From Phycisphaeraceae bacterium (GTDB lineage Bacteria; Planctomycetota; Phycisphaerae; Phycisphaerales; SM1A02): a stretch of 64,000 bases of DNA. The stretch covers positions 1-64,000 of the forward strand of contig JAHBWZ010000008.1 in NCBI GenBank assembly GCA_019636755.1, read 5' to 3'. This document shows, in pieces, positions 1,893 to 63,777 of this stretch. The translations under genes were made by a program, and so were the position numbers. A model generated the notes under the pieces. The model searched no databases and was not told the DNA's origin. It saw only the letters and a list, made by a program, of their open reading frames with translations. How positions within the stretch are numbered: the stretch's first letter is position 1; the number at the start of each line of letters is the position of its first letter.

Positions 1893-3665
1893 ATGGCATC
1901 GACGAACTCGCTCTACACAGGCCTCTCCGGACTCACCGCGAACGCGCGGCGGCTCGACGTCATCGGCAACAACATCGCGAACGTCAACACCACCGCGTTC
2001 AAGTCCAACCGCCTGGAGTTCGCACCGACCTTCAGCCGGAACTTCTCCCTGGGGACCGCGCCGGGAGACACCACCGGCGGTACGAATCCGGGCCAGATCG
2101 GGCTCGGCGTCACGATGGCCGGGACGCAGCGCAACTTCGCGAACGGCGCGATCAGCGCCACGGGCGTCGCGACCGACGTCGCCATCGAGGGCGACGGCTT
2201 CTTCGTGGCCGAACTCGCGGGTGAGCGGTACTTCACCCGCTCCGGCGCGTTCCAGCGGAACCAGGAGAACGACCTGGTCACGCTCAACGGGGCGAGGGTC
2301 ATGGGATTCGGCGTGGACGGCCAGTTCAACATCGTCGACGGCACGCTGATCCCGATGAACGTCCCGCTGGGAACACTCACGATCGCCGAGGCCTCCCGGA
2401 GTGTCGTGTTCAACGGCAATCTCAACGCCTCGGGCCAGGTCGCGACCACGGGATCCGAACATCGCAGCCGCGCGTTCTACAGCGACGCCGCGCTGACGAC
2501 GCTGGTCAATGACGCGTCGGTCGATCTCACCGACCCGCTCGTTCAACTGTGGATCGACGACGGCGCAGGCGGTTCCTACCTCGCGCTCCAGGGCGGTGAG
2601 CCCGGACCGACCATCACGATCGAGGGCATCGAGAAGGCCGGCAAGGACATCGGACGTCACGTGTTCCAGTTCACCGCGGGTCCCGCGGGTGCCGGCGTCG
2701 ACGCGACCGGCACGACGCTGCAGGACTACCTGGACTGGCTGGGTCCCGTCCTCGGTCTCTCCGATGCGACGATCAACGGACAGACGCTCGGCGGCGGCGT
2801 GTCGTTCGACGGCGGCACCGGCGAGATCGTGATCCGCGGCAACGAGGGTACGGTCCAGGGACTCGGCATCGCGACCGGCGACTTCGTCGTCACGACGAAC
2901 GGCGCCGGCATCTCCTCGCCCTTCGTCATGACGCAGACCGCCGCCGCAGACGGCGAGTCGGTCCGGACCAGTTTCGTGGTCTACGACTCCCTCGGCACGC
3001 CGATCACGGTGGATCTCTCCTTCGTGCTGCAGGAGACCGTCCCCGGCACGGGCACGATCTGGACCTTCATCGCGGAGTCCACGGCAAACGCGGCGCCGAC
3101 CAGCGTGATCGGTCTCGGCGTGGTGGAGTTCGACTCGAGCGGGCGCTTCGCGACCTCGAGCAATCTCTCGTTCTCCATTGCCCGAGACAACGGCGCCGTC
3201 AGTCCGCTCTCGGTGTCGATGGCCTTCGACTCCGGCACGGACGCGATCACCGCGCTGACCGACTCCGCCAGCAATCTGGCCGCCGTCTACCAGGACGGAT
3301 CGCCGATCGGAACGCTGAGCGCGTTCTCGATCGGCGCGGACGGGATCCTGACCGGCGCCTTCACGAACGGCCTGACGCGCCCGATCGGGCAGATCGTGCT
3401 GGGCAAGTTCGCCAACCCGGAGGGCCTGGTCGATGTCGGAGGCGGGCTCTTCCGCACCGGTCCGAACTCCGGCACGCCGATCATCGCGCGACCGCTCGAC
3501 TTCGGCACCGGCCGCGTGATCGGCGGCGCGCTGGAACTGTCCAACGTCGATCTCTCGCAGGAGTTCATCAACATGATCCTGACCTCCACGGGCTACTCCG
3601 CGTCGAGCCGGATCATCTCGACCACCAATGAACTGATGAATCAGCTCCTGGTCCTCGGCCGCTGA
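1893..3665 (+). CDS. flgE: Flagellar hook protein FlgE
   Basis: A 590-residue protein. The N-terminus (NSLYTGLSGLTANARRLDVI, then GNNIANVNTTAFKSNR) is the flagellar rod/hook signature. The middle has the FlgE/F/G beta region (VAIEGDGFFVAE, FTRSGAF) and the C-terminus ends in the hook motif NVDLSQEFINMI with a helical coiled-coil tail. FlgE polymerises into the curved hook joining rod and filament. It is longer than the enteric protein (about 400), with the extra length in the Gly/Thr/Ser-rich surface region, as is common outside the Proteobacteria. GGAGAAA lies 8 nt before ATG 1893. Base composition is slightly lower in GC and more regular than its neighbours, as expected for a highly expressed structural gene. 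Confidence 0.96.
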   Translation: MASTNSLYTGLSGLTANARRLDVIGNNIANVNTTAFKSNRLEFAPTFSRNFSLGTAPGDTTGGTNPGQIGLGVTMAGTQRNFANGAISATGVATDVAIEGDGFFVAELAGERYFTRSGAFQRNQENDLVTLNGARVMGFGVDGQFNIVDGTLIPMNVPLGTLTIAEASRSVVFNGNLNASGQVATTGSEHRSRAFYSDAALTTLVNDASVDLTDPLVQLWIDDGAGGSYLALQGGEPGPTITIEGIEKAGKDIGRHVFQFTAGPAGAGVDATGTTLQDYLDWLGPVLGLSDATINGQTLGGGVSFDGGTGEIVIRGNEGTVQGLGIATGDFVVTTNGAGISSPFVMTQTAAADGESVRTSFVVYDSLGTPITVDLSFVLQETVPGTGTIWTFIAESTANAAPTSVIGLGVVEFDSSGRFATSSNLSFSIARDNGAVSPLSVSMAFDSGTDAITALTDSASNLAAVYQDGSPIGTLSAFSIGADGILTGAFTNGLTRPIGQIVLGKFANPEGLVDVGGGLFRTGPNSGTPIIARPLDFGTGRVIGGALELSNVDLSQEFINMILTSTGYSASSRIISTTNELMNQLLVLGR

Positions 3666-3709
3666 TCCGCGTCGCGCCGTCGCACCGAATCTCGATCGGA
3701 GCCCCTGAC

Positions 3710-3910
3710 GTGATCGCCGTCACCCGACTCAACGGCAAGAGCCTCGTCGTGAACGCCGAACTCATCCGGACCATCGAGGAGAACCCGGACACGACGATCA
3801 CCCTCATCAACGGCGACCGGATCATCGTGCGCGAGAGCATGCGGGAGATCGTCACCCTGACGATCGAGTACGGCAGGCACCTGCGCCGCGCCCTGTCGGC
3901 GATGGAGTGA
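3710..3910 (+). CDS. flbD: Flagellar FlbD family protein
   Basis: A 66-residue protein recognisable as the small FlbD family found after flgE: MIAVTRLNGKSLVVNAELI at the start, a TIEENPDTTITLINGDR core and a VRESMREIV helix. The family function is unresolved; the location suggests hook or motor assembly. It starts with GTG 3710, with CGGAG about 11 nt upstream. It is the last visible gene of the flagellar operon. Six bases after its stop begins a strong stem-loop of the inverted-repeat element, which probably terminates the operon transcript. Confidence 0.9.
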   Translation: MIAVTRLNGKSLVVNAELIRTIEENPDTTITLINGDRIIVRESMREIVTLTIEYGRHLRRALSAME

Positions 3911-3916
3911 CAGGGT

Positions 3917-4157
3917 GCGCAGGGGGGCTGAAGCGCCCCCTGCAACCCCCCTCGCGGATGGATGATTCCGGGTGCGCCCTGACTCGCAACCAGGCGATCA
4001 CGGACGCGCCAGGTCCGCCACGCCGTCGTCGCCGGACGTCCTCGGCGCGCGAGCCTGAACGCCATGCGCGAAGAGACACCACCACTCGCGCGCCGGCTGA
4101 CGCCAACGACCGTCATGCGCGCCAGGGGGTTGCAGGGGGGGCCTCAGCCCCCCCTGC
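3917..4157. mobile_element. Inverted-repeat element, copy 1 (MITE/BIME-like)
   Basis: About 240 bp bounded by imperfect terminal inverted repeats of roughly 38-40 bp. The left end (GCGCAGGGGGGCTGAAGCGC onward, 3917-3956) is nearly the reverse complement of the right end (4119-4157). Each end is itself a hairpin: a G6 arm, a short CTGAAG-type loop and a C6 arm. The core has no plausible gene; short ORFs there are low in complexity. It lies between convergent genes, 6 bp after the flbD stop. A nearly identical copy follows at 4332 and a diverged one lies at 61743. There is no transposase in the window, so mobility is inferred. Confidence 0.6.
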
Positions 4158-4234
4158 GCTCGCGCACCCGTACGGAAATCCGAGTGATCAGGGAGACCCG
4201 CGGTCAACCGCGGTCCTTGAACGACATCGAGCGA

Positions 4235-4263
4235 GCGCGCGCGCGCGCGTCCATGCATGGACG
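4235..4263. repeat. Alternating GC run followed by a perfect 16-bp palindrome
   Basis: An uninterrupted purine-pyrimidine run (4235-4250) leads into CGTCCATGCATGGACG (4248-4263), a perfect palindrome. The second tandem copy has the same arrangement with one mismatch at 4664-4679. Such sequence can adopt Z-DNA or a cruciform, or bind a dimeric protein. No function can be assigned. Confidence 0.6.
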
Positions 4264-4331
4264 ACTCAGCGACCTTGACGATGCCCCAGCGCGCTCCGCC
4301 GTGCACGCCATTGCGCTCTCTGGACGCGCGT

Positions 4332-4575
4332 GCGCAGGGGGGCTGAAGCGCCCCCCTGCAACCCCCCTCGCGGATGGATGATTCCGGGTGCGCCCTGACT
4401 CGCAACCAGGCGATCACGGACGCGCCAGGTCCGACGCGCCGTCGTCGCCGGACGTCCTCGGCGCGCGAGCCTGAACGCCATGCGCGAAGAGACACCACGA
4501 CTCGCGCGCCGGCGGACGCCAACGACCGTGATGCGCGCCAGGGGGTTGCAGGGGGGGCCTCAGCCCCCCCTGCGC
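4332..4575. mobile_element. Inverted-repeat element, copy 2 (MITE/BIME-like)
   Basis: A second copy, nearly identical to copy 1. The left end is at 4332 and the right end at 4575 (GGGGGCCTCAGCCCCCCC hairpin followed by TGCGC). A roughly 235-bp separation from the aminotransferase stop (4810, other strand) holds the spacer repeat and no gene. Both ends can fold as G6/C6 stem-loops and could act as terminators in either direction. Confidence 0.6.
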
Positions 4576-4809
4576 TCGCGCACCCGTACGGAAATCCGAG
4601 CGATCAGGGAGACCCGCGGTCAACCGCGGTCCCTGAACGACATCGAGCGAGCGCGCGCGCGCGCGTCCACGCATGGACGAAACAGCGACCGTGACGATGC
4701 CCCAGCGCGCTCGGAAGTCCGCATGATCATCGGGACCTGACGTCCTCCCTGGTCCCTCAAGGACCTTCGAGCGAACAAGCAGGTCTGCGCGCGCGCGAGC
4801 GCCCGCACG

Positions 4810-5985
4810 TCACGATCTGCGGAACGTCGTCCGCTGGATCATCAGTTCCAGTGTCTGGCAGACCAGGTCGATCTCGCGCGCCGTCAGGCGGGTGAAGAAC
4901 GGCAGGGCGATGGTGCGGTGCGAGACCGACTCCGCGCAGGGGAAATCACCGGGGCTGTATCCGAAGACCCGCCGGTAGAACGGCTGCTGCGGGATCGCGG
5001 GGAAATAGTTCGCGGCGCCGACCTCGTGTCGGCGCAGGCCCTCGATGATCTCGTCGCGCTCCACGCGGGTGAAGCGGTCGCTCAGGCGGACGACGTAGAC
5101 GAACCAGCTCATGAACGTGCCGGGCTCGACGGTGGGCAGGATGAGGTCCGGATGCCCGAGCAGGCGTCGCGTGTACGTGTCCGCCACCATCTGGCGGCGC
5201 TCGATGAGTTCATCCAGTCGCTGCATCTGCGAGACGCCGAGCGCGGCGCTCAGTTCATTGAGCCGGTAGTTGTAGCCCAGCCGCTCGTGCTCCAGCCATG
5301 AGCCGAGCGACGCGGGCGTTTCCATCGGGTTCGTCGGCGTGTTCGCGCCGCGTCCGTGATTCCGGATGGATCGGCAGAGCGATGCCAGCCGGTCGTCGTC
5401 GGTCACGATCATGCCGCCTTCGCCGGTGGTGATCTGCTTGTTCGGGTAGAACCCGAAGACGGCCAGCCTTCCGAAGGCGCCGATGGGATCGTCGCCGCAG
5501 CGGCCGCCGAGGCCTTCGCACGCGTCCTCCAGCAGGGGAATCTCGTACCGGGCACAGAGGGCGGCGAGATGGCGCATGCCGCTGGGATTGCCGAAGACTT
5601 CCACGCCGATGACCGCGCGCGTGCGCTCGGTGATCGCCGCCTCGACATCCTCCAGGCGCATGTTGAGCGAGCCCGGGTCGCAGTCGACGAAGACAGGACG
5701 CGCCCCGGCGTGCAGCACGCAGTTCGCGGACGCGATGAAGGAGAACGCGGGGGTGATGACCTCGTCGCCGGGGCCGACGCCCAGCGCCAGCAGTGCCGTG
5801 TGCAGGCCCGCGGTCCCCGAACTCACCGCGACCGCGTGCGTGCGCCGCGTGCGCCGCGCCACCAGGCGCTCCAGGGCCTCCACCTGCGGTCCGATCGACA
5901 GGCGCCCGCTGCGAAGCGTCTGGACGACGATCTGCACGTCGTCGTCGGTGATGTCGGGCAGGCTGAGAGGAATCGCGTCCGTCAC
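4810..5985 (-). CDS. DegT/DnrJ/EryC1/StrS-family PLP-dependent aminotransferase
   Basis: A 391-residue fold-type I aminotransferase of the sugar aminotransferase family, which transfers an amino group to keto-sugar nucleotides for surface glycans. It shows the substrate/PLP region SSGTAGLHTALLALGVGPGD, PAFSFIASANCV, the DACEGLGG aspartate segment and the Schiff-base lysine in FGFYPNKQITTGEGGM. The GTG at 5985 was chosen: it overlaps the TGA of the upstream gene (GTGA) and starts right at the conserved PLSLPDITDDDV. A longer frame upstream would run through the neighbouring gene. The sugar substrate cannot be read from sequence. Translational coupling to the upstream helical-repeat gene is likely. 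Confidence 0.92.
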   Translation of the reverse strand: MTDAIPLSLPDITDDDVQIVVQTLRSGRLSIGPQVEALERLVARRTRRTHAVAVSSGTAGLHTALLALGVGPGDEVITPAFSFIASANCVLHAGARPVFVDCDPGSLNMRLEDVEAAITERTRAVIGVEVFGNPSGMRHLAALCARYEIPLLEDACEGLGGRCGDDPIGAFGRLAVFGFYPNKQITTGEGGMIVTDDDRLASLCRSIRNHGRGANTPTNPMETPASLGSWLEHERLGYNYRLNELSAALGVSQMQRLDELIERRQMVADTYTRRLLGHPDLILPTVEPGTFMSWFVYVVRLSDRFTRVERDEIIEGLRRHEVGAANYFPAIPQQPFYRRVFGYSPGDFPCAESVSHRTIALPFFTRLTAREIDLVCQTLELMIQRTTFRRS

Positions 5986-61647: not shown

Positions 61648-61742
61648 TGGAGAGGTCCGCGAGCGCGCGAGCGCCAGTCCTCGATCAGGACGATGCACCC
61701 GGGCACTGCGCTGTGCACGCCATGGGCTTCAGGACGCGCGAA

Positions 61743-61968
61743 CGCAGGGGGGATGAAGCGCCCCCCTGCACCCCCCCCGGCGGATGGTCGACGGGGGGAG
61801 CGCCCTGGCTCGCGACAGAGCGATCACGGACGCGCCGCGCCGGGCGCGCCGTCGGCACCGGACATCCTGCGCGCCACCCGGGACCCTCTGCGCGCAGAGA
61901 GCACCACTCGCGCGCCGGCCTATCCCCGCCACCGTGATGCGCGCAAGGGGGTTGCAGGGGGGGCCTCA
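61743..61968. mobile_element. Inverted-repeat element, copy 3 (diverged, abuts the peroxidase stop)
   Basis: The same architecture as the 3917 and 4332 copies: left hairpin CGCAGGGGGGATGAAGCGCC onward, a core sharing GCGATCACGGACGCGCC and CACTCGCGCGCCGG words, and a right end GGGGGTTGCAGGGGGGGCCT. The right arm is cut inside its loop at the peroxidase stop codon, so the TGA of that gene lies in the element. The 30 bp before it (GTGCACGCCATGGGCTTC) match the joint between copies 1 and 2. It too lies between convergent genes (mraY and the peroxidase). Confidence 0.55.
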
Positions 61969-63777
61969 GCCGCCGGGCGTCCATCGCGCCAGCAGGTAGA
62001 GCATGTCCTGCATGTCGATGCGGCCGTCGCCGTTGAAGTCGGCGCGCGGGTCGTTCTGCCAGACCGCGACGTCGCCCCAGTTGTCGAAGAGCATGAAGAG
62101 GTCATCCGTGCCGACGGTGCCGTCCAGCGTCAGGTCGGCGAGGAGCGGCTGGTATCCGTCCGGCGCGAAGAAGACCTGCTCCGGCAGGTGCGTGAGTTCC
62201 GTGTTCCGCACGATGATGTCCGCGAGCGTGGTGCCGCGGATCATCTCGCGGTCCGCTTCCGTGAACGCGGGATCGTTCTCGAACCAGAACCGGTCACCGT
62301 CGCGCAGCCGCAGGAACTGGTCGCGGATGATGGCATGGAACGTGGGCCCGACCGCGGCGCCGGGCAGGAGGTCCTCGGCGAGACCGCCCACCCACAGGTC
62401 GATGTCCGACGGCGTGGCGTACGCCGCCGCGAGTTCCGCCTGGATGCCCGGGTCCTTCGAGATGGAACCGAACGACCTGTGCGGCCGGAGCCCGTACGCG
62501 GCGCGGACGGTGTTGAGATCCGCAAGACCGTGCTCGCGCCCGCGCATGGTGTTCATGGCGAAGAGGTCGATGGCGAACTGCGTTCCCGGCATGCCGAAGA
62601 GGAAGTTCCGCAGGCTTGCCACCAGCCTGAGGTCGACCTCCTGAGAGACCATGTGTGCGGCGCCCTTCAGCCACGCGCCGGGCGGGGCCTCCATGTAGAC
62701 ATGGGGCGCGAAGAACGTGTCACGGCTGTTGCGGTGCCCCGCGGGATGCACCGATCCGTCGTCCGTCAGCCGGAGCATGATCTCGTTGACCTGGCTGTGG
62801 CCGAACCGGAATGCCGCGGCGGAGAACTCGTTCGCGATCCTGGGATCGATCTCCGGGTCATAGCCGGCGTACGGCGGGATTGCGTCCTCGCCCAGCAGGG
62901 CCGGCAGGTACTCCTGGAAGGTGACGACCTGCATGAACGCGCCGACGATCCGCCGGGCGCGCTGGTAGATCTGCTCGTCCGTCCAGCCGGGATGGGCCGC
63001 GGCGATCTCCGCGCAGAGCCGGTTGTGCTCCCGGAGGAACACGGTGTGCAGCGCGATGAGCTGGCAGTTCTCATTCGTCCGGAGGTCACCGGAGACGAAG
63101 AGCTGATCGCCCGGCAGCGCCGAGCTGTTCCCGTTCGCCAGGTTCATCGTGTTGTACGGCATCTGGTCATCGGGACCGGTCAGCAGGCGGCCCGTGCCGT
63201 CGAACGCGCGGAGGGCCGTCGCGCGGAACGGATCGCTGCCGTAGACCAGTGAGGCGTCGATCCACGACGTGATCATGTTGAACTGTTCACGTGGATTGCC
63301 GGGCCCGGTGCCGCTGGCCGGATCGAACACGGATCGCTTGAGCAGGATCGTCCGGTCGCCCTCCCCGGCGGGATCGAACCAGGGATCGCCGGCCGGGACC
63401 GGGATGTGGACGACGGCCGGTCCGGGATCGGTGGTGTGGTCGATGTCGTGGTCGATGAACTGGCCCCAGAGCGTGTGCAGATCGCTCAGGTTCCGGGCGC
63501 TCAGCCGGTTGTCCGGCTGGGCGCCGCAGGTGTTGGAGATGAACCGCGTTCCCGCGCGCTTCGAACCGCCCGGGGCCGAGACCCCGTCGGCGTATGCGTA
63601 GCCGGCGGCGCGGCGAAGTCGCGTCTGGCGCTGGCCCCAGGTCGGATGGTCCAGGTTGTTGCCGCTGCCGTCCATGCTGCGCTCCTCCGCGAGCGCGAAT
63701 GCGGCGGCGGTGAACGTCACGGCGATTGCGGCGGCCACGCGGGTGGCCGTCCGCATCGGGGCGGTCGGGTGCTTCAT
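61966..63777 (-). CDS. Secreted animal-type heme peroxidase with dockerin-like tail
   Basis: 603 residues. A signal peptide (VAAAIAVTFTAAAFALAEER) precedes an An_peroxidase domain. The distal site is in LWGQFIDHDIDHTTD (His110, with Asp109 in the place of the ester-linked Asp of myeloperoxidase and the calcium-site Asp111). Catalytic Arg233 and ester-type Glu236 are in DLRTNENCQ, proximal His327 is in RFGHSQVNE, and SLVYGSD is the calcium loop. The C-terminus holds two dockerin-like repeats, LADLTLDGTVGTDDLFMLFD and ADFNGDGRIDMQDMLYLLAR. It probably oxidises halides or phenols outside the cell. GGAG lies 9 nt before ATG 63777. The stop is at the edge of the inverted-repeat element. Confidence 0.92.
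   Translation of the reverse strand: MKHPTAPMRTATRVAAAIAVTFTAAAFALAEERSMDGSGNNLDHPTWGQRQTRLRRAAGYAYADGVSAPGGSKRAGTRFISNTCGAQPDNRLSARNLSDLHTLWGQFIDHDIDHTTDPGPAVVHIPVPAGDPWFDPAGEGDRTILLKRSVFDPASGTGPGNPREQFNMITSWIDASLVYGSDPFRATALRAFDGTGRLLTGPDDQMPYNTMNLANGNSSALPGDQLFVSGDLRTNENCQLIALHTVFLREHNRLCAEIAAAHPGWTDEQIYQRARRIVGAFMQVVTFQEYLPALLGEDAIPPYAGYDPEIDPRIANEFSAAAFRFGHSQVNEIMLRLTDDGSVHPAGHRNSRDTFFAPHVYMEAPPGAWLKGAAHMVSQEVDLRLVASLRNFLFGMPGTQFAIDLFAMNTMRGREHGLADLNTVRAAYGLRPHRSFGSISKDPGIQAELAAAYATPSDIDLWVGGLAEDLLPGAAVGPTFHAIIRDQFLRLRDGDRFWFENDPAFTEADREMIRGTTLADIIVRNTELTHLPEQVFFAPDGYQPLLADLTLDGTVGTDDLFMLFDNWGDVAVWQNDPRADFNGDGRIDMQDMLYLLARWTPGG

Follow-up and report, generated by a model that had tools for sequence, protein, structure and literature searches.

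The REPIN, an inverted doublet of REP sequences that can fold into a hairpin, was described in Pseudomonas fluorescens SBW25 (PMC3116915). Published REPINs have ends that are better conserved than the spacer between them, lie outside genes and occur in tandem clusters that take in flanking DNA, and partial excision footprints have been reported for them (PMC3116915). BIMEs consist of alternating REPs (PMC2817692). REP superfamilies that carry a GTAG or CGTC tag have been reported also from Planctomycetes, and further REP-like families with no tag have been noted (PMC3733652). REPs are known as targets of insertion sequences (IS), for which convergent gene gaps have been argued to be favourable sites (PMC1525189).

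The window analysed here is a stretch of 64,000 nucleotides from a Phycisphaeraceae bacterium (assembly GCA_019636755.1, contig JAHBWZ010000008.1), in which an initial annotation had described two tandem copies and one distant copy of a hairpin-ended element. All three were found (Table 1), and the two tandem copies (3917-4330 and 4332-4712) share 96.9% identity across 383 bp. Each copy consists of ~244 bp between inverted arms of ~37 bp, and every arm is itself a G/C stem-loop whose stem is a G6-7/C6-7 block. The proposed ~240-bp element with stem-loop ends of ~40 bp was therefore recovered as an anatomical module, but the conserved repeating unit measures ~414 bp, because the spacer leading from arm B to the next arm A is also conserved. 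The arm hairpins fold with energies between -20.6 and -28.3 kcal/mol, the latter for arm B of unit 1, and with z of about -1.9 to -3.7; they are strong on both strands. Within the spacer of unit 1 lie a third hairpin (4184-4224), weaker than the arms, and a (GAGC)n(CG)n stretch; many arrays of the family start and stop close to the latter. Unit 1 begins 6 bp past the flbD stop codon. The third copy lies in a convergent gap between an MraY-like gene (PF00953) and an animal-type haem peroxidase gene (PF03098), and its arm B is cut by the latter, the TGA stop codon of which (61966-61968, + strand) falls in the arm loop. Domain matches thus bear out the gene pairs first named for both gaps, flbD/aminotransferase and mraY/peroxidase. 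Indels of 1, 2, 14 and 28 nt among copies disrupt every reading frame, so that a coding sequence is ruled out and the repeat has no coding capacity, as had been proposed. No curated Rfam model matched in the window at gathering scores, and membership of a known RNA family was rejected.

Table 1. Repeat copies in the window and the genes beside the tandem array.
Feature	Position	Strand	Description
Repeat unit 1 (arm A, inner, arm B, spacer)	3917..4331	+	87.5% identity to family consensus
Arm A, unit 1	3917..3952	+	hairpin GCAGGGGGGC-TGAA-GCGCCCCCTGC, plus AACCCCCC
Arm B, unit 1	4124..4160	+	AGGGGGTT, plus hairpin GCAGGGGGGGC-CTCA-GCCCCCCCTGC; inverted vs arm A
Spacer, arm B to next arm A	4161..4331	+	
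Repeat unit 2	4332..4712	+	arm A 4332-4368, arm B 4540-4576; 3' truncated
Degenerate third spacer remnant	4713..4809	+	runs to DegT stop codon; 0 bp to gene 3' end
Third window copy	61663..61974	+	~80 bp 5' spacer part 61663-61742, arm A 61743-61779, arm B 61946-61972 truncated
flbD, left neighbour	3710..3910	+	PF06289; 3' end toward array
DegT-type aminotransferase, right neighbour	4810..5985	-	PF01041; 3' end toward array

The family extends well beyond the three copies first noticed. A similarity search of the organism's own genome (4,110,699 bp, 20 contigs) returned 158 matches, and the arm pattern, allowing ≤2 mismatches on both strands, matched 119 times as against once for a reversed control pattern. 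The matches fall into ~48 loci, here called arrays, which total 25.3 kb or 0.6% of the genome; the number of arrays is a minimum and the copy count a lower bound because several contigs (C8, C11, C13 and C15) end inside arrays. With ~48 loci instead of three, and with inverted ends that surpass the rest of the unit in conservation, the proposal stands against the refuting case that the initial annotation had set for it. Arrays range from a fraction of one unit to three and a half units, and nearly all keep a strict alternation of the arms (A -187- B -225- A). The inverted ends are the best conserved part, with a column identity of 0.95 for the arms (0.946 for arm A and 0.956 for arm B; n=30 copies) against 0.785 for the inner DNA and 0.713 for the spacer. 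Conservation of this kind shows that something acts on the arms, be it selection by the host, an enzyme that mobilises the repeat, or gene conversion. Next to the arm palindromes the consensus carries the flanks CGCGCAAGGGGGTT- and -GCTCGCG. The covariation term for the arm stems was +0.72; the stems are nearly invariant, which makes this value uninformative, and covariation was dropped as proof of an RNA function. A-B segments are 90.5% alike within an array and 83.3% between arrays, the pattern to be expected if dispersed copies were also duplicated locally in tandem.

At one locus (L051) the doublet is reduced to a single hairpin, GCGCAGGGGGGCTGAAGCGCCCCCCTGCGC, and a second locus (L032) looks likewise with small differences. 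Both could have arisen by deletion between the CCCCCCTGC stretches that arms A and B share, or by excision. That these loci are empty sites, the A-B doublet having inserted into an older spacer repeat, is possible; we do not claim it because deletion between the CCCCCCTGC copies yields an identical product and because there is one exact pattern match only. A second dispersed intergenic repeat of ~130-200 bp (L045:4064-4270, with similar sequences in L048, L070, L050, L066 and L046) is joined directly to the 5' end of an array at several loci, forming a mosaic.

How does this family compare with the described systems? With REPINs it shares the inverted hairpin doublet, the less conserved spacer, the extragenic position and tandem clusters that include flanking sequence, whereas it is much longer (doublets of ~244 bp in units of 414 bp), has no cognate RAYT that we could find and no tag, and occupies ~48 loci. 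A typical REPIN is several times shorter than the ~414-bp unit. As in REP/BIME families there are more than ~100 palindromic extragenic copies with regular alternating spacing and a bias to gene 3' ends, and the ~37-bp arms fall within the palindrome size of 20-40 bp, though the conserved repeat is ~414 bp. The repeat resembles the enterobacterial BIME-2 and atypical BIMEs (PMC2817692) in its alternating, regularly spaced palindromes, which are tandem, extragenic, adjacent to 3' ends and targeted by IS elements, and differs from them in its much longer spacers (187/225 bp), its unrelated sequence and the lack of linkage to a RAYT. Short palindromic hairpins in high copy are common to it and the GTAG/CGTC superfamilies, but its arms bear neither tag and their stem is the G/C block described above.

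The arrays lie preferentially behind genes. In the fetched stretches of the genome, with approximate gene calls from a simple home-made codon-usage caller, 42 arrays could be scored, and 18 of them sit in convergent, 22 in tandem and 2 in divergent gaps. Convergent gaps are over-represented relative to the gene pairs of those same stretches (18/42 arrays vs 56/349 pairs, p = 3e-5) and divergent gaps marginally under-represented (p = 0.05). The earlier statement that all members occupy convergent gaps is accordingly true of the window only, since genome-wide most scored arrays lie in tandem or divergent gaps. The edge of an array typically lies no more than ~80 bp from the 3' end of a gene, and gene 5' ends are several hundred bp away. 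Orientation is weakly biased within tandem gaps, where the element turns its 5' side toward the gene start in 17 of 22 cases (p = 0.017).

The repeat was not found in relatives. Across 100 other genomes of the same GTDB family, none of them from another species of the same genus, the arm core gave 0-2 matches per genome and strand, which equals the control level, and a DNA search of 40 relatives returned two weak partial matches only. A stricter arm pattern had no match in the collections genome_contigs or viral_contigs, where the organism's own genome may be absent. Presence in other lineages was rejected on these negative searches, by which the repeat family is lineage-specific. The convergent flbD/DegT pair is kept at 11 Phycisphaerales loci outside this genome, and the gap, 899 bp here, measures -4 to 176 bp in 10 of these 11 syntenic relatives and 818 bp in one. 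At this single locus, the one to which the orthologous-gap comparison was applied, the difference therefore indicates insertion.

In the closest relative (G020, loci L115/L196; DegT identity 74%) the same gap holds an inverted pair of a different hairpin, CACGGACAGCGAAGCGTCCGTG; thus two related lineages occupy one slot with unrelated repeats. The CACGGACAGCGAAGCGTCCGTG hairpin has 355 sites in G020, often as inverted pairs ~80 bp apart, and 0 sites in the genome studied here. It forms a REPIN-like family, and several G020 contigs terminate in it. A long inverted repeat in the 818-bp gap of another relative (L124), GTGGCACGGTCGAGCTTGCTCGCCCGTG...CACGGGCGAGCAAGCTCGACCGTGCCAC, may represent a third hairpin family.

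Array placement and hairpin stability make bidirectional termination, which the initial annotation had in mind, a plausible activity. One could go further and propose that the arrays are kept as bidirectional terminators or 3'-end stabilisers, their arms being conserved for an RNA function on either strand. We regard this as possible but doubtful. The very stable hairpins on both strands, arms far better conserved than the rest of the unit, a position beside gene 3' ends with near absence from divergent gaps, and the different hairpin repeat in the same convergent gap of the nearest relative would all fit. However, there are 0 U-tract terminator-like sites at 3600-5100 of the window, so that the region does not look like an intrinsic terminator, and syntenic relatives, some with gaps of only -4 to 64 bp, do without the repeat. 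Moreover, avoidance of promoters and coding DNA would by itself yield a like placement, and the arms would be just as conserved if a transposase recognised them. A general terminator role is countered by the presence of only ~50 loci in the 4.1-Mb genome.

The initial annotation had proposed looking for a transposase or RAYT-type gene. A link of the family to a RAYT was not borne out. The sole Y1-type (PF01797) ORF in the genome, at C17:82063-83271, scored 43 bits against the NCBIfam model of REP-associated transposases, under its cut-off of 80 bits, and no repeat arms lie beside it. Mobilisation by this resident Y1/RAYT-like ORF was rejected, as it is flanked by a different repeat: its locus (L060:3870-5680; G000 C17:81.9-83.7 kb) carries inverted TGGACACACCC pairs on both sides, and of the 8 occurrences of TGGACACACCC in the genome four are found there. 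Y1-type genes are present in 14 of 24 relatives, where the repeat was not found. A GTAG or CGTC tag adjoining the hairpins was not found either. One trait of RAYT-dependent REP/REPIN families, doublet ends conserved above the spacer, is displayed (0.95 vs 0.785 and 0.713), but because neither a cognate flanking RAYT, which might lie in an assembly gap, nor the tag was found, we class the repeat as REP/BIME-like by description and not as RAYT-dependent. No clear target-site duplication was seen at 19 array ends inspected, where the ends are blurred in CG-rich spacer; the duplications that were detected belong to an IS66 element (below). Array termini are not sharply fixed, their ends scattering with many in CG-rich spacer. 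With MITEs and with repeats of the Correia/RUP/ERIC type the family has in common that it is non-coding, has inverted repeats and lies between genes; it differs from them in that arrays end in the spacer and not at the inverted arms, and may differ also in that no clear target duplication was seen and, with the resident IS66 as the IS family surveyed, no parent IS with matching ends was found. The ends of IS66, GTAAGCGYTCGACGAACGACG, are unlike the repeat arms.

IS66 (TnpA, TnpB, TnpC) is represented in the genome by four copies or remnants, three of which lie inside arrays. The array-borne elements are ~2.7 kb long with the GTAAGCGYTCGACGAACGACG ends (L034:5550-8230, L055:4785-7485 and L062:5161-7824); L055 retains an intact transposase, while those of L034 and L062 have decayed. 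Two of them have clean 8-bp target duplications (GATTCGCC and CGCTCGCT) at different positions of the repeat unit, and these insertions are therefore independent. The L055 element has no target duplication, which suggests that it was rearranged after insertion. Derivation of the repeat from IS66 was rejected, as IS66 sits within the arrays with its own ends and target duplications.

The surroundings of the arrays are rich in duplicated DNA. Scored among the fetched stretches only, with detection limited similarly for arrays and controls, duplicated DNA makes up 23% of the sequence lying up to 3 kb from an array and 3% of control stretches; IS66 accounts for ~8 kb. At a looser threshold, by which 12% of control windows count as duplicated and some flank matches are further degenerate repeat, the flanks of 44 arrays are duplicated on one side only in 19 cases, on both in 12 and on neither in 13. 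Since most arrays have at least one duplicated flank, segmental duplication is a real contributor to the spread. Gene blocks of 0.75-3.4 kb that are duplicated often adjoin an array at both copies, several of them with breakpoints inside arrays, and at two loci (L059 and L064) a near-identical repeat copy lies within a larger duplicated block. The duplicated blocks, in L041, L045, L047, L049, L050, L051, L052, L055, L059, L063 and L064, are ~82-95% identical, have arrays near their edges and encode mostly uncharacterised proteins, some with dockerin/EF-hand matches.

These duplications raise the question of whether transposition is needed at all, that is, whether the repeat owes its spread solely to gene conversion, homologous recombination and the segmental duplication of adjacent genes. 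Such an origin would account for the excess of duplicated DNA near arrays, for the many blocks flanked by an array at both copies with breakpoints often in arrays, and for the copies at L059 and L064. We nevertheless think it rather unlikely, as 13 of the 44 arrays, the two of the window among them, are bordered by unique DNA left and right, and as the flbD/DegT array sits in a gap whose convergent setting is conserved and which most relatives keep short. A further idea sees the arrays as joints for recombination in a cassette-like gene system, where they would bound duplicated gene blocks, promote their copying and relocation via a putative enzyme and serve as landing pads for IS66; it strikes us as a long shot.

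The arrays are spread unevenly over the contigs (chi-square p = 0.02). Contigs C3, C16, C17 and C18 hold 2 arrays in ~1.03 Mb where ~12 are expected, a scarcity that may reflect chromosome position. By analogy with what has been proposed for enterobacterial BIMEs, the arrays might bind chromosome-organising or topology proteins such as gyrase or an IHF-like factor, and this uneven distribution, the alternating inverted REP-like arms as in BIMEs and their position in convergent gaps, the sites at which supercoiling builds up by the argument of PMC1525189, could be read in that sense. We consider it improbable, and the absence of the repeat from relatives means that any such role would go without conservation at the sequence level.

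Taken together, the repeat is probably a lineage-specific, non-coding, non-autonomous element of the REPIN/BIME type that was inserted or expanded past gene 3' ends. The initial annotation had offered a non-autonomous element or a REP/BIME-like family, and the multi-copy, inverted-hairpin, extragenic repeat agrees with this and behaves as a non-autonomous insertion. The best reading is that of a REPIN/BIME-like repeat of unusual length, moved by a putative factor and spread further by recombination. We infer an order of events in which a putative trans-acting enzyme that recognises the conserved hairpin arms would have seeded copies, after which local tandem duplication and recombination between copies would have lengthened the arrays, sometimes lost the doublet and carried neighbouring genes along. 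Copies would persist past stop codons, presumably the least harmful sites, where their strong hairpins may also shield 3' ends or slow transcription in both directions.

For the REP/BIME/REPIN class, the repeat adds a long, tandem and apparently RAYT-less form in the Phycisphaerales. It also offers a clean case of turnover, in which one convergent gap is near-empty in most relatives and filled by different hairpin families in two lineages, and which opens the question of whether repeats of this kind are parasites lodged in safe sites or 3'-end devices that can be replaced. Finally, the link of the arrays with IS66 insertions and with gene-block duplications suggests that they shape genome plasticity in this lineage.
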